Positions 18,273 to 44,425 of a stretch of 64,000 nucleotides of DNA are shown piece by piece. The position numbers and the translations under genes were made by a program. The notes beneath the pieces were generated by a model. The model made no database searches. It was not told the DNA's origin and worked only from the letters and a program-made list of their open reading frames with translations. The first letter of the stretch is position 1; each line of letters opens with the position of its first letter. Source of the stretch: Betaproteobacteria bacterium HGW-Betaproteobacteria-9. Lineage in GTDB: Bacteria; Pseudomonadota; Gammaproteobacteria; Burkholderiales; Burkholderiaceae_C. Location of the stretch: positions 1 through 64,000 of the forward strand of contig PHCC01000010.1 of the NCBI GenBank assembly GCA_002842215.1, written 5' to 3'.

Positions 18273-18313
18273 TGATAATCTATCAGTCAATCAAAAATTA
18301 AATTATCGATAAC
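18273..18313 (-). promoter_or_regulatory. shared 41-bp element, copy A
   Basis: Read on the minus strand it starts GTTATCGATAA, then 11 bases, then ATTGACTGATAGAT. The same two blocks with the same 11-base gap occur at 24612 and 44385. TTGACT (plus-strand 18285-18290) and TAGACT (18262-18267) form a sigma70-like promoter with a 17-base spacer, aimed at the binding-protein gene. The CoA-ligase ATG lies four bases beyond the other end, so one site could control both directions. Confidence 0.7.
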
Positions 18314-18317
18314 TTTT

Positions 18318-19940
18318 ATGACGTTCACAGACCTGATGACTGAAGTGGCAAGCTGGAGCCGCATCGACGAAGCCCTGTCCATTCATGCGCGGCGTACGCC
18401 TGACGCCGTGGCTGCCAGCTTTGAAGGGCGCCACTGGAGCTGGGCTGAGTTCAACGCGCTGGTCGAGAAAGCTGCGCAGGCACTGATGGCGGCCGGTGTC
18501 GCCCCCGGGGACCGGGTTGCATTGCTCAGCACGCCGAGACCTGAATACCTTCTGGTTCTCATGGCGGTCAGTCGCGTCGGAGCGGTCTATGTCGGCCTGA
18601 ACCCGCGCTACACGGCCAATGAGGTGGCCGAGATCGTCGAACGCGTCAGACCCCGTTTACTCATCACGCTGCGTGCCTTCGAAGGCCAGGACTTCCTGGC
18701 GCTGATCGACGCCATGGCCGGTAACACTGCGCTCCCTGAAGTGGTTTCCTTTGACAGCATGGAAGGCTGCGCCGATGGCTTGCAGGTCATCGGCTGCTTG
18801 CCGCCGCCTGCGCCTGACTCACTGGACCCACAGACGCGGTCGGCCTTGTCGGATACGGCAGCAATCGTCTTCACCTCCGGCACGACTGGGCGGCCCAAGG
18901 CCGCCATGCTGACGCACCGCGGTCTGCTGCATGCGGCCGTAGTACAGCATCTGCGTCTGAATCCGGCGGTGCCGCGCATCCTGTGCAACCTGCCGATCAA
19001 CCACGTTGGGTGCCTGATGAACCTCACGCTCGCAGGCCTGGTGGGTGGGGGCAGCGTGGTATTCCTGCAGCGCTTCTCTGCTGCGCACACCCTGAAGCTG
19101 ATCCATGACGAGCACGTGAACTGCTGGCTGCAAGTGCCGGCCATGTACCACGAATGCGTGCGTGATGCCACTTTCGATCCGAAGGCGCTTGGCCATCTGC
19201 ACAGCATCTGCATCGGTGGCGGTGCGGCGTCCGCTCAGACCATCGCGAAGCTGCGCGAAATCGGTGTACCGCTGTTTGTCGAATATGGACAGACGGAGAC
19301 CTCGAGTTCGGCTGCCTATTCCGACGCAGACGCTGATGACGACGTGTTGAGTCAGTGCATCGGCCGGTTTGATCCCCATTTCGAGTTCCGGATCGCCGAT
19401 AAGGACGGCCAGCCGTGTGCCATGGGTGAAATGGGGGAAATCCAGGGGCGCGGAAAGCTGATCTTCGCCGGTTACTACGGTGACCCGCAGGCCACGCGTG
19501 ATGCTTTTACAAGCGATGGCTGGCTGCACACAGGTGACCTCGCCCTGCAGCGCCCGGATGGCAACGTGATGATCCAGGGCCGGCTGAAGGAGATGATCAA
19601 GAGCGGTGGATACAACGTGTATCCCCGCGAGGTCGAGCTGGTGCTCGAGAGCCATCCTGGCATCGGCCAAGTGGTTGTGGTTGGTCTTCCGGACGAGCGC
19701 TATGGCGAGGCCGTGCATGCCGTGATCACCTGGCGAGGAGAGGCGGTCGGGCGCGAGGAGCTGATCGCTTTGTGCCGGAACAGGCTTGCCAACTACAAGG
19801 TACCCAAGAGCTTGCGCGTCGTGGACGCTTTTCCGTTGCTGCCCAACGGAAAGATCAACCGCGTGGAGACACGCGAGATGGCCGCCGGACTGCCGGAACT
19901 GGGCCCAGCACCGCGGACCTGCCGCACACAAACCCACTAA
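18318..19940 (+). CDS. acyl-CoA synthetase (AMP-forming)
   Basis: A 540-residue ANL-superfamily ligase that activates a carboxylate as acyl-AMP and then acyl-CoA. Motifs are IVFTSGTTGRPKAAMLTH (about residue 184), the VEYGQTETSS A5-like block, GWLHTGDLALQRPDG, and the C-terminal lysine block LLPNGKINR. ATG 18318 sits only four bases from the shared element and has no ribosome site, so the message may be leaderless or start at ATG 18336. It opens a six-gene run. The acid it activates is unknown and could be released by the amide hydrolases nearby. Confidence 0.9.
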   Translation: MTFTDLMTEVASWSRIDEALSIHARRTPDAVAASFEGRHWSWAEFNALVEKAAQALMAAGVAPGDRVALLSTPRPEYLLVLMAVSRVGAVYVGLNPRYTANEVAEIVERVRPRLLITLRAFEGQDFLALIDAMAGNTALPEVVSFDSMEGCADGLQVIGCLPPPAPDSLDPQTRSALSDTAAIVFTSGTTGRPKAAMLTHRGLLHAAVVQHLRLNPAVPRILCNLPINHVGCLMNLTLAGLVGGGSVVFLQRFSAAHTLKLIHDEHVNCWLQVPAMYHECVRDATFDPKALGHLHSICIGGGAASAQTIAKLREIGVPLFVEYGQTETSSSAAYSDADADDDVLSQCIGRFDPHFEFRIADKDGQPCAMGEMGEIQGRGKLIFAGYYGDPQATRDAFTSDGWLHTGDLALQRPDGNVMIQGRLKEMIKSGGYNVYPREVELVLESHPGIGQVVVVGLPDERYGEAVHAVITWRGEAVGREELIALCRNRLANYKVPKSLRVVDAFPLLPNGKINRVETREMAAGLPELGPAPRTCRTQTH

Positions 19941-19955
19941 CCACAGGGAAACCTC

Positions 19956-20471
19956 ATGATCAAACTTTTCGAAGATGACAACGCCTTGGCCCTCCTTGGG
20001 CGGGAAATCGGGATCTCACGCTGGATCGAGGTGCCACAACAGCGCATCACCGAATTCGGCCATGTCACGGAGGATCCCGACCGGATGCACATTGATCCCG
20101 AATGGGCAGCCGTTCACAGCCCGTTTGGCAAGACATTTGCCTTTGGATTCCTCACCGTGTCCTTGCTCACGCGCATGGTCAACGACATCGTGGCGCGACC
20201 GTCTGATGAGCTGTCGACACTCAACTATGGCTTTGACCGGTTGCGCATGCTCTCGCCGGTGCTGGTGGACGACCGCATCCGTGGCCACTTCGTCCTCAAG
20301 GCAATGAGCCTGCGTTCGCCTACGCAGTTCCGCGCGGTGTACGACGTGACGGTGGAGATCGAAGGCCGCGCGAAGCCTGCGCTGGTGGCCGACTGGATAT
20401 CGGTCACCAACGTGGCGCAGCCCCGCAAACTGCTGCCAGTCGGCGGCCCATCGGCGGAGGTACCCGTATGA
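19956..20471 (+). CDS. MaoC-like dehydratase
   Basis: A 171-residue single hot-dog-fold protein with the hydratase-2 motif FGHVTEDPDRMHIDPEWA, including the catalytic Asp/His pair, and FGKTFAFGFLT. Such enzymes hydrate (R)-enoyl-CoA thioesters or dehydrate beta-hydroxyacyl-CoAs. It follows the CoA ligase by 15 bases and overlaps the next gene (ATGA), so it probably acts on the CoA ester made by the ligase. Confidence 0.85.
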   Translation: MIKLFEDDNALALLGREIGISRWIEVPQQRITEFGHVTEDPDRMHIDPEWAAVHSPFGKTFAFGFLTVSLLTRMVNDIVARPSDELSTLNYGFDRLRMLSPVLVDDRIRGHFVLKAMSLRSPTQFRAVYDVTVEIEGRAKPALVADWISVTNVAQPRKLLPVGGPSAEVPV

Positions 20472-22741
20472 CAGCGCCGCAATCTTGCCTTGAAGTGCCG
20501 GCCGGATACGCGACGCCATGGGTGGTGGGGCCGGGCGATTCGGTGGTCCTGCACGCGAGCCTGCCGCATGCCACCCAGGTGGATATCGTGCGTCTGGGCT
20601 GCATCAATGCCGAGCGGAGCCCGGACGGGCGCCCGTTCGGTCCTGTCGAACGCATCACGCCGGTGCAGGCTGCGCCAGCGGGCATCCATGGACCGGCCTT
20701 GCAGCCGCTGGTGGCCGGTGCGCAGGTCAATGCTGAATGTGCGAGTCTGCCCGAATGGATCGACTGCTGTCTGGTGCTGGCGGTGCAGCGCATGGCCCGC
20801 GGGGCGCCAGGACATGTGCTTTCGTTACTCAATGCCGCTGGTGCAGGCATTGTCATCGAGCTCAAGGTGCACTCGCGGCAGGCAGCAGTCCTGTCCATCA
20901 CCCTGCAGCCTGGTGGCAAAGTGCTGCAGGTTCCGCTGCCGAGCGGTGAATGGCAGGTGCTGGTGCTGGACTTCGTGCCCGATCCTGAAAAACAGGGGAA
21001 TTCGTTGCTGCGCGCACGCACGGCTTTGTGCCGCGCCACGGTGCCCGACGGTGTGGCAGCGGCCTGGACCGAGCGCCATCTGCACGCGTGTGTGCTGCCT
21101 GAGGGCGGCCCGACGCATCTGCACCTGGGCACCCGGCCCGGTCATCAGGCCAGCGCCGACGCGCGCCTGGACCTGCTGTCGGTGTTGCCGAGGTCACAGG
21201 TCGACGCCTTGTCTCCCGTCGACCTGCTGACTTGTGAAGACCACGGCGGTGTTCTGCAACGGTCGACCTGGGAGCGGACGGCTTTGGTCGATCTCGACGG
21301 CGTCTGCCTGCTGAGAGCGCGCATGGGAAAGGGCTCCAGTGTGCAAGACCTCGCCCAGCGCGCCGCGCTGTCCGAGCCACAGCGCCCCTATGCCGCCGTG
21401 CGTGGCGTGCGCTGGGATGGCAGGTTCCAGGATCCGCAGCGGGCACCGGCACATTATTCGGCGCTGCACTTCAATGCCGACACCCTGCTCGATGCCCACT
21501 GGTCACCGACGACAACATGGCGAGTTCCTGACGACCTGGACAGCGGAAGTTATGCGTTTCGTCTGCGCACCGCCAGCGAGCCCGAGCTCGAACCGGTTTA
21601 TGTCAGCTTTTTCGTCAGCGGGGTCTCAAGACCACGCCACCGCGTCGCGGTGATGCTGCCCACCTTCACGTACCTGGCCTATTCCAACGCGCCAGAGGAC
21701 ATGCGTGGCCCCGTCATCACCGAGGCTGAACATGTGGCCGAGCGCCGGCTCGATGCGTTGCACCCGGCCCACGGCCGCTCCATCTACGAGCGGCATGCCG
21801 ATGGACAGGGCGTGCTATGGGCCAGCAGCCGACGACCGCTGTGGAGCGTGTCTCCTGGCCACCGTCCCTGGGGCCTGGTGGCCGACAGCTGGTTGATGGA
21901 CTGGCTGGAGGCACAAGGACAGGGTTTCGACGTCATCACCGATCACGACCTTCACCGTCTGGGTGAGGTGGCCCTTCAACCCTACAGTGTGGTGCTGACG
22001 GGTCACCACCCCGAATACACCAGCACGGCCATGTGGGACGGTCTGTGGCGCTATTTGCAGGGGGGCGGCCGGCTGCTTTATCTGGGCGGCAATGGCTTTT
22101 ACTGGCGCACGGCCTGCGACGAGGATGCAGAGGCGATCGAGGTGCGCCGCGCCGAAGACGGAACCCGTCCCAGCATCTCTGCGCCCGGTGAATACCATTG
22201 CGCTTTCACCGGCGAGTATGGGGGGCTGTGGCGCCGGCTCGGACGTGCGCCGCAAGAGATCGTGGGTCTGGGCATGGCGGCACAGGGCTTCGAGCGTGCA
22301 GCGCACTACCGCAAGAACGCCGACGCCCATGCGCCGGAAACGGATTTTGTCTTCGAGGGGGTTGACGCTGACACGTTCGGCCATTCCGGCTGGTGGGGAG
22401 GGGGCGCGTCAGGCTGGGAAATCGATCGCAGCGACGCCGACCTGGGAACACCCGTGCAAACCTGGTGGCTGGCGCGCTCCGAGGGTCATGCGGCAAGCAT
22501 GCTTCGCACCAAGGAGGAGCTGCTGTCCTACATACCACCGTTCGACGACGCCAAGGCGCGTTCCGATGTGGTCCTGGTTCCCATGGGGCAGGGCGACGTG
22601 TTTTCCGTGGGCAGCATGACCTGGATTGGCTCATTGCACGGGGCCGGGCGCGAGTCCACGGATGTGGCGAGAATAACGACCAACGTCATCCGACGCTTTC
22701 TGGACCCTTTGCCGTTGCCTCGCAAGGCGACCTCTGAATGA
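20468..22741 (+). CDS. N,N-dimethylformamidase large-subunit-like protein
   Basis: A 757-residue protein matching the DmfA2 large subunit of dimethylformamidase: a beta-rich N-terminal half, then a catalytic half with FTYLAYSN (Tyr402, Tyr405), Tyr440 in SIYERHADG, and GHHPEYTS (His514, Glu516). The Paracoccus enzyme has a mononuclear iron held by two tyrosines and a glutamate, with a nearby histidine. These residues are the obvious equivalents, but the exact match needs alignment. It would hydrolyse a formamide or other amide. No small-subunit (DmfA1) gene is nearby. It is translationally coupled to the MaoC gene, an odd setting for a formamidase. Confidence 0.8.
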   Translation: MTAPQSCLEVPAGYATPWVVGPGDSVVLHASLPHATQVDIVRLGCINAERSPDGRPFGPVERITPVQAAPAGIHGPALQPLVAGAQVNAECASLPEWIDCCLVLAVQRMARGAPGHVLSLLNAAGAGIVIELKVHSRQAAVLSITLQPGGKVLQVPLPSGEWQVLVLDFVPDPEKQGNSLLRARTALCRATVPDGVAAAWTERHLHACVLPEGGPTHLHLGTRPGHQASADARLDLLSVLPRSQVDALSPVDLLTCEDHGGVLQRSTWERTALVDLDGVCLLRARMGKGSSVQDLAQRAALSEPQRPYAAVRGVRWDGRFQDPQRAPAHYSALHFNADTLLDAHWSPTTTWRVPDDLDSGSYAFRLRTASEPELEPVYVSFFVSGVSRPRHRVAVMLPTFTYLAYSNAPEDMRGPVITEAEHVAERRLDALHPAHGRSIYERHADGQGVLWASSRRPLWSVSPGHRPWGLVADSWLMDWLEAQGQGFDVITDHDLHRLGEVALQPYSVVLTGHHPEYTSTAMWDGLWRYLQGGGRLLYLGGNGFYWRTACDEDAEAIEVRRAEDGTRPSISAPGEYHCAFTGEYGGLWRRLGRAPQEIVGLGMAAQGFERAAHYRKNADAHAPETDFVFEGVDADTFGHSGWWGGGASGWEIDRSDADLGTPVQTWWLARSEGHAASMLRTKEELLSYIPPFDDAKARSDVVLVPMGQGDVFSVGSMTWIGSLHGAGRESTDVARITTNVIRRFLDPLPLPRKATSE

Positions 22742-22802
22742 TGAATCCACACATTTCCGTCCCCCACGCCATGGTGGCCACCACTGTTTCACGGGCAGCG
22801 TC

Positions 22803-23468
22803 ATGGTGAGTGAACGCATCAGCGCCAAACGCGCCGTGCTGCGCCAGCGCATCATCGACGTGGCGTTGGAGGCGTTTTCCTCACGCGGCTTCGAGGCCAC
22901 GACCACCGCCGACATCGCCGATACGTTGCAGATGACCGGCCCGTCGCTGTACCACTACTTCCGCACCAAGGAAGAGCTGCTTTTCGCCTGCATGGATCAC
23001 ATCCTTGAGCAGCTCCATACCAGCGTCACCACGGCGGCCGCAGGCGAAGGCACAGTACGCGAGCGCATGGTCCGGGTGCTGCAGGCGCAACTCAAGGTGG
23101 AGATGGGCAGCGGAGGAGCTGCATCGCTAGTCAATGCCCATCTGTACGGTCCGCAGTACCTGACCGCGGTGCTGTCGACCGAACGCCGTGAGGCCTTGCG
23201 CCTGCGTCAGCGTGCCTTGGTGCAGGTGTTTCGTGAACTGATTGACCAGGGGGTCGCCAGTGGCGAGTTCGTGGTGGCCAACACACGGGTCACGGCCTTC
23301 AACGTGCTGGCCGTGGTTCAGTACTCCAGCGTCTGGTATCGGCCCAAAAAAGGGCTGCGCCTGACCGATCTGATCGAGGCCCAGGTGGCCGCAGCCATGC
23401 AACTGCTGGGCATCCCGGCGACCGACCCGATGTTGGAGCCTAAGCCTGCACGCAAGGGGCGACCATGA
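22803..23468 (+). CDS. TetR-family transcriptional regulator
   Basis: A 221-residue repressor with the TetR helix-turn-helix at residues 30-60 (TTADIADTLQMTGPSLYHYFRTKEEL) and a C-terminal effector domain like those sensing acyl-CoAs or hydrophobic acids. It lies inside the catabolic run, and its stop overlaps the next start. It is the best local candidate for binding the 41-bp element found upstream of three operons. That is inference. Confidence 0.9.
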   Translation: MVSERISAKRAVLRQRIIDVALEAFSSRGFEATTTADIADTLQMTGPSLYHYFRTKEELLFACMDHILEQLHTSVTTAAAGEGTVRERMVRVLQAQLKVEMGSGGAASLVNAHLYGPQYLTAVLSTERREALRLRQRALVQVFRELIDQGVASGEFVVANTRVTAFNVLAVVQYSSVWYRPKKGLRLTDLIEAQVAAAMQLLGIPATDPMLEPKPARKGRP

Positions 23469-24085
23469 GTTTCGGCATCCTGATCTATCCCGGGGTGGAG
23501 GAGCTCGATTTCCAGGGGCCCTGGGAAGTGGTGGGCATGTGGCACAGGTATGCCGGTGGGCCCGCTCCATGTCTCGTGGCGCGCAGCCTTGATCCGGTGC
23601 GTTGTGCGCATGGCATGCGCGTGTTGCCCGATACCGATTTCGCCGGTGTGGGGCCGCTCACACATCTGCTGATTCCCGGCGGATTCGCAGCCTTCGAAGA
23701 AATGGAACAGGCCGACCTCATGACGTTTGTACGCCAGAACGCAGACGCCGGCGCAACCATGATGTCTGTGTGCTCGGGCAGCTTCATCTTGCTGGCCGCT
23801 GGTGTATTGGAGGGGCGACGCGCCAGCACCAACTGGAAGGTTGTGGACAAGCTGCGGGAAGCTGGCGTCGAGGTGGTCGAAGAACGCTACACGCAAGATG
23901 GCATGGTCTGGACGTCTGCCGGTGTCTCGGCAGGCATCGACATGCTGCTGGCCTATATCTCGAAGACGCAGGGCGAAGAGGTGGCGGGCACTGTCCAGAT
24001 GCACGCGGAGTATTTCCCCGAAGGTCGTATCTATGGGCCAACACGTGAGGCGTACCCCTTGCCCGCGTACGTGAGGCGCAACTGA
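23465..24085 (+). CDS. DJ-1/PfpI protein, isonitrile hydratase-like
   Basis: A 206-residue single-domain member of the DJ-1/PfpI superfamily in the isocyanide hydratase (InhA) branch: GVEELDFQGPWEV with Asp15 where InhA has Asp17, and VCSGSFILLAAGVLEGRRASTNW with the nucleophile Cys103. InhA follows this cysteine with Thr; here it is Ser. It has no AraC domain, so it is an enzyme and not a GATase-type regulator. Isonitrile hydratase turns R-NC into an N-formamide, and a formamidase-like gene lies two genes upstream. Other small hydratase or glyoxalase roles are possible. Confidence 0.7.
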   Translation: MSFGILIYPGVEELDFQGPWEVVGMWHRYAGGPAPCLVARSLDPVRCAHGMRVLPDTDFAGVGPLTHLLIPGGFAAFEEMEQADLMTFVRQNADAGATMMSVCSGSFILLAAGVLEGRRASTNWKVVDKLREAGVEVVEERYTQDGMVWTSAGVSAGIDMLLAYISKTQGEEVAGTVQMHAEYFPEGRIYGPTREAYPLPAYVRRN

Positions 24086-24087
24086 CC

Positions 24088-24510
24088 ATGTCCGAACGCC
24101 TGGAGGTTCCCGCCCGCACGGTGTGGGCCAGGACGCTGGCCTACTCGCGCGCTGTCAGGGTCGGGCGCCATGTGCTTGTCTCGGGCACGCTGCCGGTGGA
24201 CGAAGAGGGGCGGCTTGTGGGGGGCGACGACGCGTTCCTCCAAGCACAGCAGGTATTGAAGCTGATGCTGGACGCGCTGTCCAAGGCTGGGGCCGCCACC
24301 GGCGACGTGGTGCGTCTGCGTATCTATCTTCGCGACATGGAAGACCTGTCCGCCGTCGCGGCAGCCCAGTTCGCCATCTTCGAGCATGTGCGACCCGTTT
24401 GCACCGTGGTGCACTCCAGACTCGCCCAGGACCATTTCCGTGTCCAGATGGAGGCAGACGCCATATTGCCGGTGCATCGAGCGACTCGATCCGGGACCTC
24501 TGCGGCATGA
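24088..24510 (+). CDS. Rid-family (YjgF/UK114) protein
   Basis: A 140-residue protein of the Rid family, recognised by the trimer-forming fold signature (VGRHVLVSGTLP, QAQQVLKLMLDALSKAGA, VVRLRIYLRDMEDL, VQMEADAI). The arginine that RidA uses to bind the imine substrate (in the P-A-R-T/S segment) is replaced: the segment here reads RPVCTVV. It therefore probably lacks classical enamine/imine deaminase activity and belongs to another Rid subgroup. It is the last gene of the run. GC-rich hairpins at 24544-24605 follow. Confidence 0.8.
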   Translation: MSERLEVPARTVWARTLAYSRAVRVGRHVLVSGTLPVDEEGRLVGGDDAFLQAQQVLKLMLDALSKAGAATGDVVRLRIYLRDMEDLSAVAAAQFAIFEHVRPVCTVVHSRLAQDHFRVQMEADAILPVHRATRSGTSAA

Positions 24511-24611
24511 CCGCAGGGCGATCCATGGCCCCGAGGTGGCCGGATACCCACTGAAGACCGACCCGCCATCCCGGTGTCGGTTGATGATGGCCCCCTTTCG
24601 GGGGTAAAAAA

Positions 24612-24652
24612 GTTATTGATAACTAAAAAAATAATTGACTGATAGATAAAAA
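24612..24652 (+). promoter_or_regulatory. shared 41-bp element, copy B
   Basis: GTTATTGATAA, 11 AT-rich bases, then ATTGACTGATAGAT. Block sequence and spacing match copies A and C. GTTATTGATAAC is itself a near-perfect inverted repeat. It ends 18 bases before the M20 start. A TTGACT -35 is present but no good -10 at 17 bases, so the transcription start is uncertain. Confidence 0.7.
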
Positions 24653-24670
24653 TTCGTCATCATCCCGAAC

Positions 24671-25915
24671 ATGAATCCGAATGATGGCGACATTGACCGG
24701 TCCGGCGCCGTACCGGGTGCTCTGGGCGAAAAAGCACCGACCAGGGTCAACCCGCTGATACAGGCACTTCGTGCGCGAAGCGCCGAGTTCACAAGCCTGC
24801 GGCGAGACCTGCATCGACACCCTGAGCTGGGCCTGGCAGAAGCGCGTACATCGCAGAAGATCGCCGACTGCTTGACCCAATGGGGCTACGAGGTTCACCG
24901 GGGCCTGGCGACGACGGGCGTGGTGGGAACCATGCGACGTGGCAACGGCCGCAGGCGCCTGGGGTTGCGTGCCGACATGGATGCGCTGCCGATACGTGAG
25001 GCAACAGGCCTTGACTGGGCGAGCCAGCATGACGGCGTGATGCACGCCTGTGGTCATGATGGCCACACGGCGATGCTGTTGGCCGCGGCACGCCATCTGG
25101 CCATCGACGCCTCTTTTTCGGGCACGCTGCATCTGATCTTTCAGCCAGCGGAGGAGCACCCGGGCGGCGCACGGCTGATGGTCGAGCAGGGTTTGTTCGA
25201 ACGCTTTCCGTGTGACGCCATCTTTGCGATGCACAACATGCCGGGTGTCGAACAGGGGCGGCTGGTTTTCCGGGACGGCGCGATGATGGCCTCGTCCGAT
25301 GACGTGACGATCACACTGCATGGGCGGGGCGGCCATGGTGCGACACCGCATCGCGCCGCCGATCCCGTCGTCGCTGCCGCGGCCACCGTGATGGCGCTGC
25401 AGACCATTGTGTCTCGCAACGTCGATCCGCAGCAGGCCGCGATCATCACCGTGGGCGCCCTGAATGCCGGGCGCGCCAACAATGTGATTCCGGACCGCGC
25501 CACGCTTGAACTCAGCGTGCGCGCGCTGGACCCCGCTGTACGCGATGTACTGGAGGAGCGCATCCGTGTGCTCGTCCAGATGCAGGCGGAAAGCTTCGGC
25601 CTGCGAGCCACGGTGGACTACCGGCGAGACTATCCCGTGCTCGTCAACTCGCCGCGCGAGACGGAGTTCGCACGCGAAGCGGGTGCCGATCTGCTGGGGG
25701 AGGAGGGCATCGAACGCCAGGGCCCCTCGCTGACCGGCAGCGAAGACTTTGCAGTGATGCTGCAGCAGTGTCCTGGCAGTTACGTCCTCATCGGCAACGG
25801 TGCTGGCGAAGGGGGGTGTGACCTGCACAACCCCGGCTACGACTTCAATGACCACAACCTTGCGATCGGCGCGGCTTTCTGGGTGAGGTTGGCCGAGCGC
25901 TTTCTTTGCGACTGA
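24671..25915 (+). CDS. M20-family amidohydrolase, hippurate hydrolase-like
   Basis: A 414-residue metal-dependent amidohydrolase of the M20D group (hippurate hydrolase, IAA-amino-acid hydrolase). Metal and catalytic motifs are ADMDALPI, HACGHDGHTAML (Cys127, His129), FQPAEEHPGGA, AMHNMPG and the dimer-domain GRGGHGATPHRAADPV. These enzymes cleave N-acyl amino acids. It heads a seven-gene run ending at 33032 that also encodes a peptide-type importer and an amidase, so it probably hydrolyses an imported N-acyl compound in the cytoplasm. Confidence 0.9.
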   Translation: MNPNDGDIDRSGAVPGALGEKAPTRVNPLIQALRARSAEFTSLRRDLHRHPELGLAEARTSQKIADCLTQWGYEVHRGLATTGVVGTMRRGNGRRRLGLRADMDALPIREATGLDWASQHDGVMHACGHDGHTAMLLAAARHLAIDASFSGTLHLIFQPAEEHPGGARLMVEQGLFERFPCDAIFAMHNMPGVEQGRLVFRDGAMMASSDDVTITLHGRGGHGATPHRAADPVVAAAATVMALQTIVSRNVDPQQAAIITVGALNAGRANNVIPDRATLELSVRALDPAVRDVLEERIRVLVQMQAESFGLRATVDYRRDYPVLVNSPRETEFAREAGADLLGEEGIERQGPSLTGSEDFAVMLQQCPGSYVLIGNGAGEGGCDLHNPGYDFNDHNLAIGAAFWVRLAERFLCD

Positions 25916-25926
25916 ACGGAGACATC

Positions 25927-27474
25927 ATGAAACTCAATCGACGCCAAATCCTTGCGGCCGGCGCCCTGGCCTGCGGACTGCCATTGCCCGCTTGGGCGCA
26001 GGGTGCACGGGCACTCAACATCGCCATCTTCCCTGAGCCACCCTCGATCCTCGCGGCCTACGGTTCCATTGGACCGGCGCAGATGGTCAACGGCAACATC
26101 TATGAAAGCCTGCTGCGCTTCGACGACAAGCTGAGCCCTCAGGCGAACCTTGCCATCGAGTGGGCCCTCTCCAAGGACTTTCTCACCTACACGTTCAAGC
26201 TCAAGCACGGGGTCACCTGGCACGACGGCAGGCCCTTCACGGCCGACGATGTCGTGTTCACCGCTGACAAGTTCATGCGGCAGCTCAACCCGCGCTTTCG
26301 GCTCGCATTGCAACAGGTGCAGAGCATCAAGGCGCTGGATGCGCACACGGTGGAGTTTCGCCTGAGCGAGCCTTATCCGCCCTTTCTGCAGCTATTTGAC
26401 GTCAGCACTTTTCCGATCGTGCCCAGGCACCAGTTCGAAAACGTCGATCTCTCGCGCCCACCGCAGTTCACCCCCATCGGTACCGGCCCCTACAAGTTCA
26501 AGGAATGGCAGCGGGGCTCATTCATTCAGCTGGTCCGCAACGACGCCTACCACGTCAAAGGCCTGCCGGCCGTCGAGGCTGTGTACTTTCATGTGATTCC
26601 CGATGCGGCCTCCCGCGCCGCGGCCTTCGAGTCTGGCCGCATCGACGTGCTCCCGGGCGGCACGGTCGAGTACTTCGACGTCGGGCGCTTGGCCAAGCTG
26701 CCCGGCGTGAGCGTGACGACCAAGGGTTGGGAGAAGCTCTCGCCGTTGGCTTGGCTGTGGATCAACCACCGTGTTCCCCTGCTGCAGGACGTCCGGGTGC
26801 GGCGGGCACTCATGCACGCGATCGATCGTGAAGCGCTCGCCAAGATCGCCTGGCAGGGCTTCGCAACGCCGGCCACCGGTCCGCTCAATCACCTCACCCC
26901 GTTTCATACCCCGCAGGTGCGCAGCTACCCGCACGACGCAGTGAAGGCCAGGCAGTTGCTGACCGACGCCGGGTACAAGGGTGAACCGGTGCGCCTGCTG
27001 GGTCTTCCCTACGGTGAAGTCTGGACACGCACCGCCGAGATGGTCAAGCAGAACCTGCTGTCGGCCGGATTCAACGTGCAACTGGTCAGCGCCGATTTGC
27101 CGGGTGTCATCTCCCGTCAGTCCAACTGGGACTTTGACCTCGCGTTTTCCTACTTCTATCAGTATGGGGATCCATCCGGTATCTCACGCAACTATGTGGG
27201 CAGCGAGATACGCAAGGGATCGCCGTACAACAATGTCGGTGGCTACCAGAACCCGAAGGTGGACGCGCTGTTCGAGCGCGGCGCGCGCGAGAGCGACCCC
27301 AGGAAGCGAGCCGAGATCTATGCCGAGGTGCAGCGCATCATGGTTGATGATGTTGCGGCAGCCTGGCTGCTGGAGCTGAACTTCCCGACGGTCTACCGCT
27401 CACGCATCGACAACCTTGTCAACAGTGCCCTGGGCCTGAATGACAGTTTGGCGCGAGCGAGCGTTCGCGGCTGA
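25927..27474 (+). CDS. peptide/nickel-type ABC substrate-binding protein
   Basis: A 515-residue SBP_bac_5 protein with an N-terminal export signal (NRRQILAAGALACGLPLPAWAQG, a Tat-like double arginine). The family core is visible: YESLLRFDD, YTFKLKHGVTWHDGRPFTADDVVF, PIGTGPYKFKEW and VRRALMHAIDREAL. GGAGA precedes the start. It is the binding protein of the Dpp-type importer that follows. Such proteins bind peptides, opines, glutathione or nickel. The ligand here is unknown. Confidence 0.92.
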   Translation: MKLNRRQILAAGALACGLPLPAWAQGARALNIAIFPEPPSILAAYGSIGPAQMVNGNIYESLLRFDDKLSPQANLAIEWALSKDFLTYTFKLKHGVTWHDGRPFTADDVVFTADKFMRQLNPRFRLALQQVQSIKALDAHTVEFRLSEPYPPFLQLFDVSTFPIVPRHQFENVDLSRPPQFTPIGTGPYKFKEWQRGSFIQLVRNDAYHVKGLPAVEAVYFHVIPDAASRAAAFESGRIDVLPGGTVEYFDVGRLAKLPGVSVTTKGWEKLSPLAWLWINHRVPLLQDVRVRRALMHAIDREALAKIAWQGFATPATGPLNHLTPFHTPQVRSYPHDAVKARQLLTDAGYKGEPVRLLGLPYGEVWTRTAEMVKQNLLSAGFNVQLVSADLPGVISRQSNWDFDLAFSYFYQYGDPSGISRNYVGSEIRKGSPYNNVGGYQNPKVDALFERGARESDPRKRAEIYAEVQRIMVDDVAAAWLLELNFPTVYRSRIDNLVNSALGLNDSLARASVRG

Positions 27475-27493
27475 ACCAGGGAACCCCGCCGCA

Positions 27494-28468
27494 ATGAACA
27501 AACTTGGGTTCCTCGCGCGTCGCCTGCTGCAAGGCGCGGCCATGCTGCTGGCGATCGCGGTGATCAACTTCATCCTGATACGGATGGCGCCCGGCGACCC
27601 GGCCATGGTGATGGCCGGTGAAGCCGGCGCTGGCGACGAGCAGTTTCTGCAGCAACTGCGTGAACGCTTCGATCTCGATCGTCCACTGCCCGCGCAGCTC
27701 GGCAGCTATGTCGGCCATCTGCTGCACGGCGATCTGGGCATCTCGTACCGCCAGCAAGCGCCGGTGTTGGATCTGATCCTGGAGCGGCTACCGGCCACCT
27801 TGCTGCTCACCGGATCGGCGTTCGCGCTGTCACTGGCGTTGGGCGTGGCCATTGGCGTCTGGGCGAGCAGCAAGGTCGGAACCTGGAAAGACAGTGCGAT
27901 CAGCCTGCTGGCCACGCTGTTTTACGCCACCCCGTTGTACTGGCTGGCATTGCTGGCCGTACTGGTGTTCGCGCTGTGGTTGCCCTGGTTCCCGCCGCTG
28001 GGCCATCAGAGCGTTGGTGCGGGCTACAGCGGAATGGCGCATGTGCTCGACGTCGCTCACCATCTGGTGTTACCCACCCTCGTGCTGGCGATGTTCTACA
28101 TGGCCATCTATGCCCGCATGACGCGTGCGGCCATGCTGGAGGTGGCCGGGCAGGATTTCGTCAAGGCCGCCCGGGCGAAGGGCCTGACACCCGGGCGCAT
28201 TCTGCGAGCGCATGTGTTGCGCAACGCGCTGCTGCCCGTGGTAACGATGGCTGGTCTGCAGGCCGGGGCGATGGTGGGTGGTGCCGTCCTGATCGAGACC
28301 GTGTTCGCCTGGCCCGGGATTGGACGCCTGCTGTTCGAGGCGCTTGCGCAGCGCGACTACAGCCTGCTACTGGGCACCTTTCTGTTTACCGCGGCGCTCG
28401 CCGTCATCTTCAACATCGTGACCGACTTCGTCTATACGCTGGTCGATCCACGGATCGAAATGTCATGA
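27494..28468 (+). CDS. Dpp-type ABC transporter permease (DppB-like)
   Basis: A 324-residue permease with the DppB N-terminal region FILIRMAPGDPAMVMAG, the segment FDLDRPLPAQLGSYVGHLLHGDLGISYRQ, and the EAA loop FVKAARAKGLTPGRILRAHVLRNALLPVVT. It has six predicted membrane segments. It overlaps dppC by four bases (ATGA). Confidence 0.93.
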   Translation: MNKLGFLARRLLQGAAMLLAIAVINFILIRMAPGDPAMVMAGEAGAGDEQFLQQLRERFDLDRPLPAQLGSYVGHLLHGDLGISYRQQAPVLDLILERLPATLLLTGSAFALSLALGVAIGVWASSKVGTWKDSAISLLATLFYATPLYWLALLAVLVFALWLPWFPPLGHQSVGAGYSGMAHVLDVAHHLVLPTLVLAMFYMAIYARMTRAAMLEVAGQDFVKAARAKGLTPGRILRAHVLRNALLPVVTMAGLQAGAMVGGAVLIETVFAWPGIGRLLFEALAQRDYSLLLGTFLFTAALAVIFNIVTDFVYTLVDPRIEMS

Positions 28469-29307
28469 ACAACGGATTCCTGCGCCGGTTCCGGCGCAAC
28501 CACGGCGCGGTCGTCGGCGTGGTCGTTCTGCTGCTGGTCGCATTCGGTGCGTTGGCGGCGCCCTGGCTGTGCAGTCATGATCCGTGGGCGCTGGTGCAAC
28601 TGCCGTTCGTTCCGCCCGGTACCCATTCCGACCTCCCACTGGGGTCGGACGCGCTCGGTCGCGATGTCGCCTCCGGGTTGCTGTATGGCGCGCGTGTGTC
28701 AGTGCTGATCGGCCTGGTTGCGACCACGATGGCATTGCTGCTCGGTGTCGGTCTGGGGGCGGTCGCTGGCTACCACGGCGGCTGGGTGGATGCGATGCTG
28801 ATGCGCCTCACCGAAATCTTCCAGGCGATCCCGGGCTTTGCCTTCGCGATTGTTCTGGTGGCGATCTTCCAGCCCTCGGTGCAGTCCATCGTCTGCGCGA
28901 TCGCGATCGTCTCCTGGCCGCCGGTGGCCCGGCTCGTGCGGGGCGAGTTCCTGTCGTTGCGCGAGCGCGAGTTCGTGGCGGCCGCACAGCTCTCAGGCCA
29001 GGGCAGCGCGAAGATCATCTTCACGCAAATCCTGCCCAATGCCATTCCGCCCATCGTGGTCATGGGGTCGTTGATGGTGGCCAGCTCCATCCTTCTCGAG
29101 TCGGCCCTGAGCTTTCTTGGCCTGGGCGACCCTGAGCTGATGAGCTGGGGCTACATGGTCGGTGCCGCGCGCACCGCGTTGCGCCAGGCCTGGTGGGTGG
29201 CGGTGTTTCCCGGCATGGCGATCATGCTGACGGTGCTTTCCCTGAACCTCGTTGGCGAAGGCCTGGCCGATGGTCTGAACACGCGGCTCGACGGGAGGCT
29301 GCGTTGA
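28465..29307 (+). CDS. Dpp-type ABC transporter permease (DppC-like)
   Basis: A 280-residue permease with the DppC markers LGSDALGRDVASGLLYGARVSVLIG, the EAA-loop region FVAAAQLSGQGSAKIIFTQILPNAIPPIVV and ESALSFLGLGDPELMSWGYMV. It pairs with the DppB-like subunit. Its stop overlaps the TTG start of the ATPase gene. Confidence 0.93.
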   Translation: MNNGFLRRFRRNHGAVVGVVVLLLVAFGALAAPWLCSHDPWALVQLPFVPPGTHSDLPLGSDALGRDVASGLLYGARVSVLIGLVATTMALLLGVGLGAVAGYHGGWVDAMLMRLTEIFQAIPGFAFAIVLVAIFQPSVQSIVCAIAIVSWPPVARLVRGEFLSLREREFVAAAQLSGQGSAKIIFTQILPNAIPPIVVMGSLMVASSILLESALSFLGLGDPELMSWGYMVGAARTALRQAWWVAVFPGMAIMLTVLSLNLVGEGLADGLNTRLDGRLR

Positions 29308-30932
29308 GCGCGCCGGTGCTGCAGGTGCAGGGCCTGTCTATCTGTTTGCCACGGGGGGGCGACCGTGCGCTGGCGGTCGAGGGTGTGGACCTTTCCCTGA
29401 ATGCAGGCGAGACCCTGTGCGTGGTGGGCGAGAGCGGATCGGGCAAGTCCATGATCGCCAATGCCGTGATGGGGTTGTTGCCGAAACCGGGAGTCGCTCC
29501 GGTGGCTGGTCGCATCCTCTTCGAGGGGAATGATCTGCTGGCACTCGACGAGGTCGAAATGCGCGCATTGCGTGGCCAGCGCATCGGCATGGTCTTCCAG
29601 GAGCCGATGACTTCCCTGAACCCGCTGATGCGCGTGGGCGACCAGATTGGGGAAGTGCTGGACGCGCACCAGTCACTGCCCGCGGCAGAACGGGACGCGC
29701 GCATCATGGCCGCATTGCGCGACGTGGGGCTGCCTGAACCCGAACTGATCGCGCGTGCCTACCCGTTCCGGTTGTCTGGCGGTCAACGCCAGCGTGTGAT
29801 GATTGCCGCCGCGCTGGTGCTTGAGCCCACGCTGCTGATTGCCGACGAGCCCACGACGGCGCTGGACGTCACGACGCAGGCGCAGATCCTCGCACTGATG
29901 GGCGAGCTGCAGCAGCGCAAGGGCATGGCCTTGCTGTTCATCACCCATGATTTCGGCGTCGTCGCCGAAATCGCCGACCATGTGGCGGTGATGCAACTGG
30001 GCCGTGTGGTCGAGACGGGAACCGCGCAGGAGGTGCTGCGTGCGCCAAAACATCCCTACACCCGGGCCCTGATCGCGGCCATTCCTCATGGTCGACCCCG
30101 CAGCAGCGACGAGCCTGCGGGAGCCCCGCTGCTCGTCGTGCGCGGTTTGAACAAGACCTACCGCAGCGGCGGTGGCTTCTTTCGCCCCGGCCGCGAGGTG
30201 CATGCCGCGCGCGACCTGAGCTTCACGCTCGCGCGTGGCGAGGCGCTGGGCATCGTCGGGGAGTCGGGCTCGGGAAAATCCACGCTCGGTCGCCTGCTGA
30301 CAGGCCTGATCGCCCGCGACAGTGGTCAGGTGCAGTTCGCCGGGCGTGATCTGGCGCCTGAACTGCGCCGCCGGCCGGCGGCCGAACGCTCCCTTGTTCA
30401 GATGGTCTTCCAGGACCCCTACGCGTCGCTGAATCCGCGACACTCCGTGGGAGCGGCGATCGCGGCCGGACCCATTGCCCAGGGTGTTCCGCGGGAAGAG
30501 GTTCGTGAACTGGTCGTCAGCCTGCTTCTTCGCGTGGGCCTCAAGCCAGACGCGGCAGACCGTTTTCCACACGAATTCTCCGGTGGCCAGCGCCAGCGGA
30601 TTGCGATCGCGCGCGCGCTGGCAATGCGACCGCAACTGCTGGTGGCCGACGAACCGGTTTCGGCACTCGACGTGTCGGTGCAGGCCCAGGTGCTTGAACT
30701 CTTCGAACAGGTCCGGCGCGAGTTCGCGCTGAGCATGCTCTTCATCACGCACGACCTGCGTGTGGCCGCTCAGATGTGTGATCGCATTGCGGTAATGCAT
30801 CGGGGCGAGATCATCGAGTCTGGCGTGACCGCTGAGGTGGTTCAGCAACCGCGTCAGGACTACACCAGGGCTCTGATTGCATCCGCTCCCCACTTTCACC
30901 TCAGTCAACCGCAGGGCCTGGGCAATGAGTGA
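29304..30932 (+). CDS. fused Dpp-type ATPase with two ABC domains
   Basis: A 542-residue protein joining DppD-like and DppF-like ATPases, as in GsiA. The first domain has Walker [19 protein letters not shown] and [12 protein letters not shown]. The second starts near residue 275 with [18 protein letters not shown] and [12 protein letters not shown]. The likely start is TTG 29304, overlapping the dppC stop, with GGGAGG eight bases upstream; no ATG fits. Its end overlaps the amidase gene by eight bases. Confidence 0.9.
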
Positions 30933-32343: not shown

Positions 32344-33032
32344 CCACACGACATATCGCGCTGCTTGCCTACCCTTCGATGACCGCACTCGATCTCATCG
32401 GACCGCACCACGTGCTGTCGATGGTGCCGAACGTGAAGGTTCATATCGTCGCAAGGACGCCCGCACCCATTACGACCGACCTCGGCCTGGTCATCACGCC
32501 CGACACCACGTTCGACGACTGTCCGCAACAGCTCGAAGTCCTGTTTGCCCCAGGAGGCACAGCCGGAACCGTGGCCGCGATGGAGGACGATGCGACGCTG
32601 GACTTTTTCCGGACCCGCGGGCAGCGGTCCGCTTGGGTCACCAGCGTGTGTACCGGCGCGCTGATACTAGGTTCCGCCGGACTCCTGCGTGGCCGTTCCG
32701 CCACAACTCACTGGTCGGCATTGCCCTTGCTGACGCGCTTTGGCGCCACGCCCCTCAGGCAACGTGTTGTGCAGGACGGACATGTGGTCACGGGCGCTGG
32801 CGTTACCGCAGGCCTGGATTTTGGTTTGCTGCTTGCAGCCCGACTAAGCAGCTCGGAGCATGCACGAAAGATTCAGCTACTGATCGAATACGACCCCGAG
32901 CCTCCATTCGATTCGGGTTCTCCGGCGCGTGCAAGCGCGTCGACAGTAGCTTCTTTGCAGGATTCATTGACTCATTTTCTGGAAGCTGCCGCTGCAGTTG
33001 CCGGACGCCAAGCAAGCGCTGTTCACCTTTAA
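32340..33032 (+). CDS. DJ-1/PfpI protein, isonitrile hydratase-like
   Basis: A 230-residue single-domain protein close in length to Pseudomonas isonitrile hydratase InhA (about 228). It has ALDLIGPHHVLS with Asp18 and SVCTGALILGSAGLLRGRSATTHW with Cys104 followed by Thr, matching the InhA Asp17 and Cys101-Thr102 set better than the first copy at 23465. InhA hydrates isocyanides to N-formamides. It is coupled to the amidase gene (ATGA). The 260 bases after it hold only a short hairpin (33058-33073) and no recognisable gene. Confidence 0.75.
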   Translation: MTTRHIALLAYPSMTALDLIGPHHVLSMVPNVKVHIVARTPAPITTDLGLVITPDTTFDDCPQQLEVLFAPGGTAGTVAAMEDDATLDFFRTRGQRSAWVTSVCTGALILGSAGLLRGRSATTHWSALPLLTRFGATPLRQRVVQDGHVVTGAGVTAGLDFGLLLAARLSSSEHARKIQLLIEYDPEPPFDSGSPARASASTVASLQDSLTHFLEAAAAVAGRQASAVHL

Positions 33033-35795: not shown

Positions 35796-35825
35796 AAGTC
35801 TGGGTGTCAATAGGTGAACGGACCG

Positions 35826-37586: not shown

Positions 37587-37589
37587 TCT

Positions 37590-39733: not shown

Positions 39734-39776
39734 GCTTGTCTCCTGTAAAAGGGTTTTGGGGTGTATTTTGAAAAAA

Positions 39777-39796
39777 TTATGACACCACTGTCATAA
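39777..39796. promoter_or_regulatory. perfect 20-bp palindromic operator
   Basis: TTATGACACCACTGTCATAA: perfect 8-base arms around a 4-base centre, placed between the divergent binding-protein gene (start 39733) and the TetR gene (start 39844). Size, symmetry and position fit a TetR-family operator controlling both directions. Confidence 0.75.
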
Positions 39797-39843
39797 ATGT
39801 CAACAGCACTTTGTTTTGTGGGTTTCGCGCGATACTTGCGCCC

Positions 39844-41448: not shown

Positions 41449-41772
41449 ATGTCCAAAGTACGACCGCCGTACCCGGCGGAATTCCGCCAGCAGATGGTCG
41501 AGCTCGTTCGAGCGGGTCGCTCGCCAGCGCAGCTCTCGCGTGAGTTCGGCGTCACCGCCCAGTCCATCACCAACTGGGTCGGCCAGGCCGCCATCGACGA
41601 CGGCAAGCCTTTACCTGGCAAAGAAGGCCTGACCACTGCTGAGCGAGAAGAGCTCGTGCGCCTGCGTCGCCAGCTGCGCCAGGTCCAGATGGAGCGTGAC
41701 ATCCTGGCAAAGGCTACGGCCTGGTTTGCCGGTCGCAGCGATGCGACTTCAACGAAGTCTTCGGACTCGTGA
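41449..41772 (+). CDS. IS3-family transposase OrfA
   Basis: A 107-residue helix-turn-helix protein (PPYPAEFRQQMVELVRAGRS, LSREFGVTAQSITNWVGQA) with a C-terminal leucine-zipper-like heptad segment (LVRLRRQLRQVQMERDILAKA), the usual OrfA plan. Its stop overlaps orfB. IS3 elements normally make an OrfAB fusion by -1 frameshifting, and orfB here lies in the -1 frame. Confidence 0.9.
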   Translation: MSKVRPPYPAEFRQQMVELVRAGRSPAQLSREFGVTAQSITNWVGQAAIDDGKPLPGKEGLTTAEREELVRLRRQLRQVQMERDILAKATAWFAGRSDATSTKSSDS

Positions 41773-42671
41773 TGGCGAACCAGGCCGACCTCCCCGTGCG
41801 CACCATGTGCCGCGTGCTCGGTGTGTCTGCCAGCGGTTTCTATGCCTGGCGAGAACGTGCCCCGTCCCAGCGCAGCATCGCCAACGCGGTGATGACCGAG
41901 CGCATCCGCCAGATTCACCAGGACTCCTACGAGTCCTACGGCATGCCCCGGGTGCGGGCCGAACTCATCGAGCAGGGTGTGTGCATCAGCCGCCAGCGCG
42001 TGGCCCATCTCATGCGGCAAGCCGGCATCCACGGCATCAGCAAGCGCCGAGGCTTCACCGTGACCACCCGCCGGGACAAGCATCAGGCCCCAGCCAGTGA
42101 CCTGGTCAACCGGCGTTTCCACGCCACTGGCCCGAACCAGCTGTGGGTGGCCGACATGACCTATGTGCCGACCTGGATGGGGTTCCTCTATCTGGCCGTG
42201 GTCATCGATGTCTGGAGCCGTCGCGTGGTGGGCTGGGCCATGGGAGAACGCATGACCGCCGACCTGGTGCTGGCAGCGTTGAACATGGCGCTGGAGCAGC
42301 GCAAACCCAAGGGCGTCATCCACCACTCGGACCAGGGCAGCCAGTACACCAGCCTGGCCTTTGGTGAGCGGTGTCGGCAGATGAAGGTGCGACCTTCGAT
42401 GGGGTCGGTGGGCGATGCCTACGACAACGCCATGGCCGAGAGTTTCTTCGCCAGTCTGGAGGGCGAACTCATCGAGCGCAACAGCTTCCAGAGCAAGGCC
42501 CAGGCCCGCATGGCGGTCTTCACCTGGATTGAAGGCTGGTACAACCCCAGGCGCCGCCACAGCGGCCTGGGCTACCGCTCACCCCTGAACTTTGAAAGGA
42601 ACCACGAAGCCCTGTTTGATGTTGTCGAAGATGCCAGCGTGCATGTCCAGACAACACCCGAAACGGTTTGA
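41769..42671 (+). CDS. IS3-family transposase OrfB (DDE integrase domain)
   Basis: A 300-residue catalytic protein with an HTH_21 segment (IRQIHQDSYESYGMPRVRAEL) and an rve integrase core. The DDE triad is seen in WVADMTYVPTW, IHHSDQGSQYTS and MGSVGDAYDNAMAESFF. The start codon of the separate product is GTG 41769 or ATG 41772, but it is probably made mainly as a frameshifted OrfAB protein. The frame is complete. Confidence 0.92.
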   Translation: MMANQADLPVRTMCRVLGVSASGFYAWRERAPSQRSIANAVMTERIRQIHQDSYESYGMPRVRAELIEQGVCISRQRVAHLMRQAGIHGISKRRGFTVTTRRDKHQAPASDLVNRRFHATGPNQLWVADMTYVPTWMGFLYLAVVIDVWSRRVVGWAMGERMTADLVLAALNMALEQRKPKGVIHHSDQGSQYTSLAFGERCRQMKVRPSMGSVGDAYDNAMAESFFASLEGELIERNSFQSKAQARMAVFTWIEGWYNPRRRHSGLGYRSPLNFERNHEALFDVVEDASVHVQTTPETV

Positions 42672-43246
42672 GAATCAAACCAGTACCCGTCCACCGAAGC
42701 GGGTCAACTCCAATCTGCAGACTGAGCTGGTGCTCTTCGAGCAGGTGGCGAAAGCGCAGGATGCTGACCCGATCAGGGATGCGCTCGGTGCCCGAAAGAC
42801 CAGCGAAGTCGCGGTACAGCGGTGTCTCGAACAAGGCCTCTTCCATGGCCAGGTCCGACAGACCGAACCACTGCTGCAAAAAGTGGATACGCAGCATCGT
42901 CTCGTGCGCAAACGGCGGGCGCCCTGTGCTGGCCACTGGCGAAGCTGCCGCAATCAACGCGATGAGTTCGCGCCACGGCACCACCAGCTCCATCTCGTCC
43001 AGGAACACCGCCTTGCGTGTGCGCCTGGTGCTCAGGTTCAGTCCCAGTTCGGCTTGTTTCTTCATTACGCCATTGTTCCTCGCCTCGAACCTTCAGACCA
43101 TTGGGGACTGCATGGGGTTTTGAACACCATCCCTAGAGTGAGGTCTGTCAGCTGGCCCACAGACTTGTTCATACGGATCAGGTGATCTTCGATGTGCCGG
43201 GCTATCTTCCCTTCAGTCAAGCTGGCGGGTCCACCTGATCCATGCC

Positions 43247-43585
43247 CTACGAGCGCACCTGCGTGGGACTGGTGACGGCCTCACAGATCGCTGCGGCATC
43301 GGCCGCATCGTTCTAACCTCGTTTGCCCGAGAGGCGGTAGGGGGTGACGAACTTGGGTGCCATCAGGAGCACGGTGTGACCAAACCTCTGAAACTCGCGA
43401 ACCCAGTGGTGGGCACCGGAGCAGGCCTCCATGCCAATGAGGCAAGGTGGCAGCGAGGCGATGAGTTCAATCAGTTTGGCGCGTCGCACACTGGGCCGAA
43501 CCAGTGCGGGCTTGCCCGACTCATCCACGCCGTGAACGGCGAAAACGTTCTTTGCCAGATCGATGCCAACGGATACGATTGCCAT
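43247..43585 (-). pseudogene. IS110-family transposase remnant
   Basis: The N-terminal DEDD part is clear: MAIVSVGIDLAKNVFAVHGVD, IGMEACSGAHHW, APKFVTPYRLSGKRG. A TAG then replaces the usual Lys before NDAADAAAICEAV, and the frame ends soon after, with the C-terminal two thirds missing. It is a dead fragment. Confidence 0.85.
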
Positions 43586-43707
43586 AGACTTCCCCTTCCA
43601 CAAAAACGAGTGAGTTGATGAAGAGTTCAAGCTTCCCATCGTGGCACTCAGTTGCAGTGAACCGCAAGCCTCACGGCGCGCGCCTCGCTCGGGACGGGGA
43701 AGTTCCT

Positions 43708-43850
43708 TTCATTCGCTGAATAAGCCGTCGAATTGTGCGATGCACCTTCGAACGCTGAGCCTCGTCGATCTCGCCGCCTCTGCGTACGCGCTAGTTGGTG
43801 AAGTCTTTGGCCTTGGGTGCCTTGGATGCGATCAGTGTTTGGCGACGCGA
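43708..43850 (-). pseudogene. degenerate IS5-type transposase fragment
   Basis: The minus-strand translation KDFTN-stop-RVRRGGEIDEAQRSK resembles the segment before the KVEHPF motif of IS5-family transposases. It carries a stop codon and no flanking domain. It differs from the IS5 copy at 40.6-43.1 kb. Confidence 0.4.
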
Positions 43851-43864
43851 AGATGCCCACGACA

Positions 43865-43999
43865 TTGCTGGACCGGCTGAACCACCACTGACACATCGTT
43901 GAGACCGGCAACGAAAGCTGGCGGCTCAAACACTCCGGCGCGGCAGCGAAGACAGGCCCGAGAAAGAGGCGACGGGCGGCTCAGATCTGCACGACTGAA
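43865..43999 (+). pseudogene. IS21 helper protein (IstB) C-terminal fragment
   Basis: The plus-strand translation LLDRLNHH-stop-HIVETGNESWRLKHS matches the C-terminal end of IstB (LLDRLLHHCHIVETGN...). One stop codon sits where cysteine is expected. Only the last 40 or so residues remain. Confidence 0.65.
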
Positions 44000-44384
44000 T
44001 AAGGAGGGGTCAATGCGCCAACGGCAGACGTATACACAGACGCATACCCCGGCTGCACCCAAACAGGTGGACCAGAAAACAGCAGGTTGCGAATTGAACC
44101 AAGGCGGCGACTACCCAGTGCGTCACCCAGCACCCGCACCACCAGTGTCAACAGCCCCCGAATATGGCCGACCAGGTGGCACTTTCAGAAACAGACGTGC
44201 GGGGGCACGCCGCAGTGCCAGCTGATCCGATCTTGTGCCGATGCGGACCCTGGACCAAACCAGGGGCAATCCCGCTGCGCTGAGGGATACACCAATCAGC
44301 CTGAAAAAATCCGTCGGTGTCATCGAGATCCTTGCTCACGTGTGATGTTCCACAAAATTTTGGCTAGAAGATGGTCAATAAAAT
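44000..44384. other. gene-free interval after the IS debris
   Basis: Only short frames without family resemblance or ribosome sites are present. The composition changes from GC-rich to AT-rich near 44340 as the shared regulatory element begins. I recognise no gene here. Confidence 0.5.
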
Positions 44385-44425
44385 GTTATTGATAAATAAA
44401 AAATCGATTGATTGGTAAATCATAA
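44385..44425 (+). promoter_or_regulatory. shared 41-bp element, copy C
   Basis: GTTATTGATAA, 11 bases, then ATTGATTGGTAAAT, the same architecture as copies A and B. TTGATT (44408-44413) and TAAACT (44431-44436) make a sigma70-like promoter with a 17-base spacer. The block TGATTGGTAAATCA is an inverted repeat. The element ends 75 bases before the Bug-protein start. Confidence 0.72.

Follow-up and report, generated by a model that had tools for sequence, protein, structure and literature searches.

Operators built from two 5-bp half-sites with 4 bp between them have been described for two TetR-family proteins, and these are among the systems closest to the one considered here. SbtR (TTHA0167) of Thermus thermophilus has the site TGACYrnnyRGTCA, and PfmR (TTHB023) of the same organism, like SbtR a TetR-family repressor, has sites at the promoters of fatty-acid genes, two of these promoters having two sites each (PMC7022988); DarR of mycobacteria and Rhodococcus has the operator ATACT(N)4AGTAT, with base contacts made by Lys44-Gly45 and with two dimers on one 20-bp site (PMC10636190). 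Here we describe a comparable element that occurs three times within the 64,000 nucleotides of contig PHCC01000010.1 of Betaproteobacteria bacterium HGW-Betaproteobacteria-9 that were analysed (the window). It is proposed, with a probability of roughly 0.78, to be the paired operator of TetR1, a TetR-family protein encoded in the same gene island, which would act as an autoregulated local repressor of genes for uptake, amide hydrolysis and coenzyme A (CoA) activation, its binding being a prediction. The case made from sequence consists of the element and its exclusivity to the island, its conservation at the same targets in other genomes, its predicted overlap with promoters and the palindrome in its first box.

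A sequence-only reading of the window had reported a repeated element at three places, each in front of a separate operon, and this is borne out: the 36-bp consensus GTTATYGATAA-N11-ATTGAYTGRTARAT matches copies A, B and C (Table 1) with 0 mismatches each, N11 included, the next-best places in the window having 8 mismatches, and the neighbours are as that reading named them, a Liv importer with a CoA ligase at copy A, M20-SBP5-DppBCDF-amidase at copy B and Bug-GGT-TauE at copy C. The three copies are identical to one another at 29-32 of 41 positions and their 100-bp flanks on either side at 23-39 of 100, so the repeats are not parts of one long duplicated block. Many hits at unrelated loci would have counted against a dedicated element; in the whole genome (57 contigs, 5.26 Mb) the consensus matches copies A, B and C alone, all in the island, with a reversed-pattern control of 0/0 and a chance expectation of ~4e-10 matches per genome under a first-order Markov model (9e-6 even if the entire genome were 75% AT). 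Furthermore a relaxed pattern allowing one mismatch, run on 399 genomes of the family including its own, found nothing beyond the three window copies and so nothing in the 398 others.

The consensus of 12 aligned instances is TTAYYRATnRnTAAAWnWWYnRTTGAYnnRTARAT. Its first 14 bp, box 1, form the palindrome TTAYY-N4-RNTAA, and centre 7.5 takes the three best palindrome scores when all positions and gaps of 0-8 are compared, which is the kind of site that a TetR-family local repressor would be expected to use. TNAYY-like half-sites are repeated 21-23 bp beyond those of box 1, giving a degenerate box 2 in the same register that is a weak palindrome by itself; the two boxes have a joint score of 1.13, where column shuffles give 0.66 ± 0.16 and 11 of 5000 score as high. 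The first matrix of element instances was made without L045 and L039b (the L numbers denote loci in other genomes), and the 12-element matrix behind the consensus and the palindrome scan without L039b, L045 and the weaker L040 sites. An early model of two TNAYYRRTNA boxes 23 bp apart was replaced, as the palindrome analysis sets the centre of box 1 at 7.5 and that of box 2 at 28.5 or 30.5.

The element shares its 5-4-5 half-site format with SbtR, together with the half-site TGACY (PMC7022988), and box 1 shares that format with DarR (PMC10636190); it differs from the PfmR and SbtR sites in that the TetR1 sites are AT-rich and paired 21-23 bp apart. DarR has two dimers on a single site, whereas two boxes are present here; Lys44-Gly45 of DarR can be matched by eye with Gly46-Pro47 within T45-G46-P47 of TetR1, the sites themselves being different (PMC10636190), and no hint of a cyclic nucleotide effector is seen, though none was specifically sought. 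We keep a DarR-like dimer of dimers as an analogy only.

The TTGAY of the element is a predicted -35 (element positions 23-28), and likeness to TATAAT downstream of it is highest with a spacer of exactly 17 bp, where the mean match is 3.77 of 6 over 13 elements and 9 of the 13 have at least 4 (the next-best spacer, 15 bp, gives 2.85); these elements are partly orthologous and hence not 13 independent cases. The -35 and -10 that had been read 17 bases apart at copies A and C are found again as the predicted promoters TTGACT-N17-TAGACT and TTGATT-N17-TAAACT, and at copy B the candidate TTGACT-N17-CATCAT also matches 4 of 6 in its -10, without the first T. The L045 element, which stands outside the count of 13, matches just 1 of 6 at 17 bp. 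In all six betaproteobacterial CoA-ligase elements the top-scoring reverse-strand promoter, alone or jointly with another, is TTGC(A/G)(T/C)-N16-(T/G)A(T/G)AAT, which reads towards CoA ligase 1 and twice has a perfect TATAAT; at the L045 CoA-ligase element it is not the best. Copy A thus probably serves two overlapping divergent promoters, of which the second is conserved, and from the positions of its TTGCAT (18252) and GATAAT (18274) the element covers the start of the CoA ligase 1 transcript. Since the two promoters overlap almost fully, polymerase is probably unable to use both simultaneously.

TetR1 has an N-terminal TetR_N domain and a TetR-type ligand domain, and its gene lies in the operon begun at copy A, as it lies in the corresponding operon of L039, L042, L043 and L045. 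Its homologues form a discrete group, 109 of them at E <= 6e-30 and the next only at 2.7e-14, and the recognition helix MTGP[AS]LYHYF is nearly invariant across 36 aligned rows. None of the 23 named TetR subfamilies listed (NCBIfam equivalogs such as BetI, KstR and RutR) reached its cut-off, the best being BetI with 55.6 against 201.3 bits. By structure comparison its nearest folds are DarR, PfmR (23% identity in the structural alignment), KstR2 and AibR; the repressors KstR2, AibR and BkaR in the fold list are 19-22% identical to it, AibR being named there as its isovaleryl-CoA complex. KstR2, AibR and BkaR have catabolic roles and CoA-ester ligands. TetR1 is also rare: among the 399 family genomes a close match is present in its own genome alone (376 bits), 8 others falling below 100 bits, and among 60 relatives it is present only in its own genome and in G002, a genome of the same genus that holds L039. 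A plasmid search for TetR1 gave no match. Two conserved TetR1 peptide words, sought in one genome each of 84,980 species, led to 8 loci with 7 usable relatives (37-88% identity), all in metagenome-assembled genomes (MAGs) and one of them alphaproteobacterial; L046 (45% over 44 residues) was not taken as an orthologue.

The comparison of elements covered eight genomes, one of these with weak boxes only. Nine loci were scored with a matrix built solely from the three window copies; 7 of these loci had been fetched through TetR1 and two, L070 and L071, through the element pattern. In five of the 7 TetR1 loci the best match lies at the start of the CoA-ligase gene, with 0 of 100 shuffles as good in L039, L040, L042 and L045 and 1 of 100 in L043; L041, whose contig is without the CoA-ligase promoter, has no match (27 of 100 shuffles as good). 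Because the pattern itself had led to L070 and L071 their matrix scores are no test, though their genes are: in L071, from the genome of L041, CoA ligase 1, MaoC and the hydrolase lie downstream of the element, and in L070, from the genome of L043, livK and M20-DppAB are divergent, each faced by its own element in a new neighbourhood. In L095 (the genome of L042) 78 bp separate the start of the element from a TonB receptor gene, in front of M20, an element is also found before a TonB receptor gene in L040, and L039 has a degenerate copy before Bug as at copy C. The element thus follows its targets through rearrangement, and by sequence the targets that keep it are CoA ligase, livK, M20-Dpp and Bug, a TonB receptor gene also being fronted by it. 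In L040 (8069-9931, a Rhodoferax MAG) the reading frames of both CoA ligase 1 and the amide hydrolase are broken (several tblastn pieces), which is either decay or an assembly error; MaoC and TetR1 match there as long single pieces.

Looser patterns were written from elements already seen, so that recovering those elements is no test, and new sites were judged by their neighbouring genes. The loosest search gave 19 rows, 14 at pathway genes (a single site read on both strands accounts for two of these), 1 beside the L094 TetR and 4 unexplained, against 2 rows for the reversed pattern; another gave 11 rows, 8 at pathway genes and 3 unexplained, with a control of 0. At 2849-2883 of L094, in G002, an element-like inverted repeat, CTACTAAT...ATGAGTAG, lies between a Liv-type ATPase gene and the TetR gene.

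Several of these observations weigh against TetR1 as the dedicated binder of a paired operator. The TetR1-fetched loci hold TetR1 by construction, and L042 (16.6 bits) and L043 (21.0 bits) are modest cases, since among 36 shorter control loci taken around other TetR genes the highest score was 15.2 bits. L044 fits only in part: the TetR1 encoded there is 56% identical and its helix almost unchanged, but the boxes at 5881-5935, which lie upstream of that TetR1 between genes for a TonB receptor and a penicillin amidase, match the matrix poorly (12.2 bits, a score that 2 of 100 shuffles reach). The two strands of the L045 element score alike (31.4 and 30.4), and the L094 TetR, with 28% identity and another recognition helix, has a similar site alongside. 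Box 2 scores only 0.42 as a strict palindrome at centre 30.5, where its half-sites are at 23 bp, and better, 0.57, at centre 28.5, and its position was picked after the alignment had been seen.

It would seem unlikely, though it is among the stronger of the alternatives, that the element serves another regulator, whose gene lies elsewhere in the genome, in co-ordinating the island and that TetR1 acts on something else. Other regulators are numerous in the genome and the palindrome of box 2 is weak; a regulator with a wider role should, however, have more sites, and there are none elsewhere in the genome or in the 398 relatives. The 9-kb L039 contig carries two elements and is tiled by relatives of window genes, among which TetR1 is the sole DNA-binding protein (without a Pfam scan of its open reading frames (ORFs), and with a regulator on another contig possible). 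Binders of the LysR, AraC or GntR type were considered and set aside. Within the window a GntR-UTRA gene at 481 is far from the elements, and there is no LysR among the first 50 ORFs scanned with Pfam, a set that excludes most of 57.9-64 kb. Slightly less probable again is that TetR1 binds the element as an activator, upstream of and over the -35. Some TetR-family proteins act as activators, box 1 precedes the promoters of livK, M20 and Bug, and the copy B -10 candidate lacks its first T, but box 2 covers the -35 itself, and at copy A the boxes occupy the start of the other promoter and DNA downstream of it, a position from which an activator would block. Because one box covers the -35 and the copy A boxes lie at and beyond that start, repression by TetR1 is the simplest reading.

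The second regulator of the island, TetR2 (39811), is a very improbable binder of the element. It shares the island and has a relative in L045 (32% over 199 residues), but its own divergent gap holds the palindrome TGACA-N4-TGTCA, which can also be read by eye in the matching gap of L045 and has a single exact occurrence in the genome, and the L039 contig with its two elements has no TetR2 match (that contig being just 9 kb). This palindrome is likely the TetR2 operator for the SBP8-ABC-permease-ECH-CoA ligase 2 block, outside the TetR1 regulon; the block is without the element and probably answers to TetR2. The suggestion that the TetR gene at 22803 encodes the regulator therefore stands as the best-supported choice from sequence, TetR1 being in the copy A operon and TetR2 having a separate palindrome. 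The candidate regulon stands as well, orthologous targets in other genomes with a TetR1 orthologue again having the element, and its assignment to a single pathway is tentative. The least credible account makes the repeats a small mobile or duplicated sequence that has spread within the island and plays no part in regulation: there are three near-copies inside 26 kb and an integrase-like gene (41769-42671) is close by, but the flanks are unlike, a promoter is predicted at every window copy, and the same genes in other genomes, one of them alphaproteobacterial, retain diverged copies.

As the binder of the element TetR1 would work as follows. Box 1 would be its TetR-type palindrome and box 2 would cover the -35 before livK, M20 and Bug, the copy A site lying also at the predicted transcription start of the divergent promoter for CoA ligase 1, MaoC, the amide hydrolase, TetR1, DJ-1 and RidA; as TetR1 is in that operon it would regulate itself. 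With the substrate absent, TetR1 dimers would cover the -35s and start sites and all the operons would be repressed together; on entry of the substrate TetR1 would be freed by a metabolite, for which the CoA thioester product of CoA ligase 1 is the most plausible candidate, and the importers would be induced jointly with the amide hydrolases and the CoA pathway. Binding by TetR1, repression over activation and the CoA-ester inducer are what we infer, the last from the CoA ligase in the operon and the fold neighbours of TetR1.

The 757-aa amide hydrolase has a full-length match to N-acetyl-(R)-beta-phenylalanine acylase (E 1.7e-109) and matches N,N-dimethylformamidase over its C-terminal 60% alone (from residue 303, 1e-91); it differs from both in sharing its operon with a CoA ligase and MaoC. 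Genes around the elements in relatives encode TonB receptors, ExbB-type channels and penicillin-type amidases. Taken with the acylase-like enzyme, this suggests that the controlled route handles a larger, N-acylated, amide-containing compound. A more specific picture is speculative and on balance improbable: that the TetR1 module, rare and scattered over Beta- and Alphaproteobacteria, mostly in MAGs, controls through paired operators a full import and degradation route (TonB receptor, ExbB, Liv, Dpp, hydrolases of penicillin-acylase and beta-phenylalanine-acylase type, CoA ligases) for an N-acylated beta-amino-acid natural product such as a cyanobacterial peptide, with a CoA ester as inducer and one copy A operator switching both directions.

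Three to five operons that would otherwise be annotated as separate transporters and hydrolases are joined by the element into one uncharacterised, candidate catabolic pathway, and as a specific DNA tag it has led to further candidate pathway genes elsewhere (TonB receptor, ExbB, penicillin-type acylase). The substrate question is now testable, as whatever frees TetR1 from a 38-bp probe would be the signal of the pathway. Literature searches among open-licence papers, which are no proof of absence, found no paper on this gene set.

Table 1. Positions of the element copies, predicted promoters and associated genes in the window
Feature	Position	Strand	Remarks
Element copy A, 36-bp core	18278-18313	-	exact consensus match
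Element copy A with last base of box 2	18276-18313	-	between livK (-) and CoA ligase 1 (+)
Element copy B	24612-24649 (36-bp core 24612-24647)	+	5' of M20-Dpp-amidase; exact match; orthologous copy before M20 in L070
Element copy C	44385-44422 (36-bp core 44385-44420)	+	5' of Bug-GGT-TauE; exact match; degenerate copy before Bug in L039
Box 1 of copy A, TTATC-GATA-ATTTA	18299-18312	-	palindromic 14-mer; palindrome analysis, 12 instances
Box 2 of copy A, TGACT-GATA-GATTA	18276-18289	-	degenerate, same register; weak palindrome alone
-35 TTGACT, leftward (livK) promoter	18285-18290	-	predicted; inside element
-10 TAGACT, leftward (livK) promoter	18262-18267	-	predicted; 17-bp spacer
-35 TTGCAT, rightward (CoA ligase 1) promoter	18252-18257	+	predicted
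-10 GATAAT, rightward (CoA ligase 1) promoter	18274-18279	+	predicted; both boxes downstream of or just over its end
-35, copy B promoter	24635-24640	+	predicted
-10 candidate CATCAT, copy B promoter	24658-24663	+	predicted
-35, copy C promoter	44408-44413	+	predicted
-10 TAAACT, copy C promoter	44431-44436	+	predicted
livK-livH-livM-livG-livF importer and alpha/beta hydrolase	12427-18191	-	leftward from copy A; livK start read by eye
CoA ligase 1 - MaoC - amide hydrolase - TetR1 - DJ-1/PfpI - RidA-like	18318-24510	+	operon from copy A
Amide hydrolase, 757 aa	20468-22741	+	Pfam: dimethylformamidase-like
TetR1 (TetR_N + TetR_C_24)	22803-23468	+	proposed binder; in operon begun at copy A
M20 peptidase - SBP5/DppA - DppB - DppC - DppDF - amidase - second DJ-1/PfpI	24671-33032	+	from copy B
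Palindrome TGACA-N4-TGTCA-TAAA	39776-39797		between SBP8 (-) and TetR2 (+, 39811); sole exact copy in genome
Bug-type binding protein - gamma-glutamyltranspeptidase (GGT) - TauE	44491-48060	+	from copy C

Between the TetR2 block and copy C the integrase-core gene is followed by a stretch without recognised genes (42670-44200), and insertion elements may have had a part in shaping the island. Further along the window, at 49733-51957, a fusion of an Ada Zn domain, AraC, AlkA and HhH-GPD adjoins a 6-O-methylguanine methyltransferase gene.

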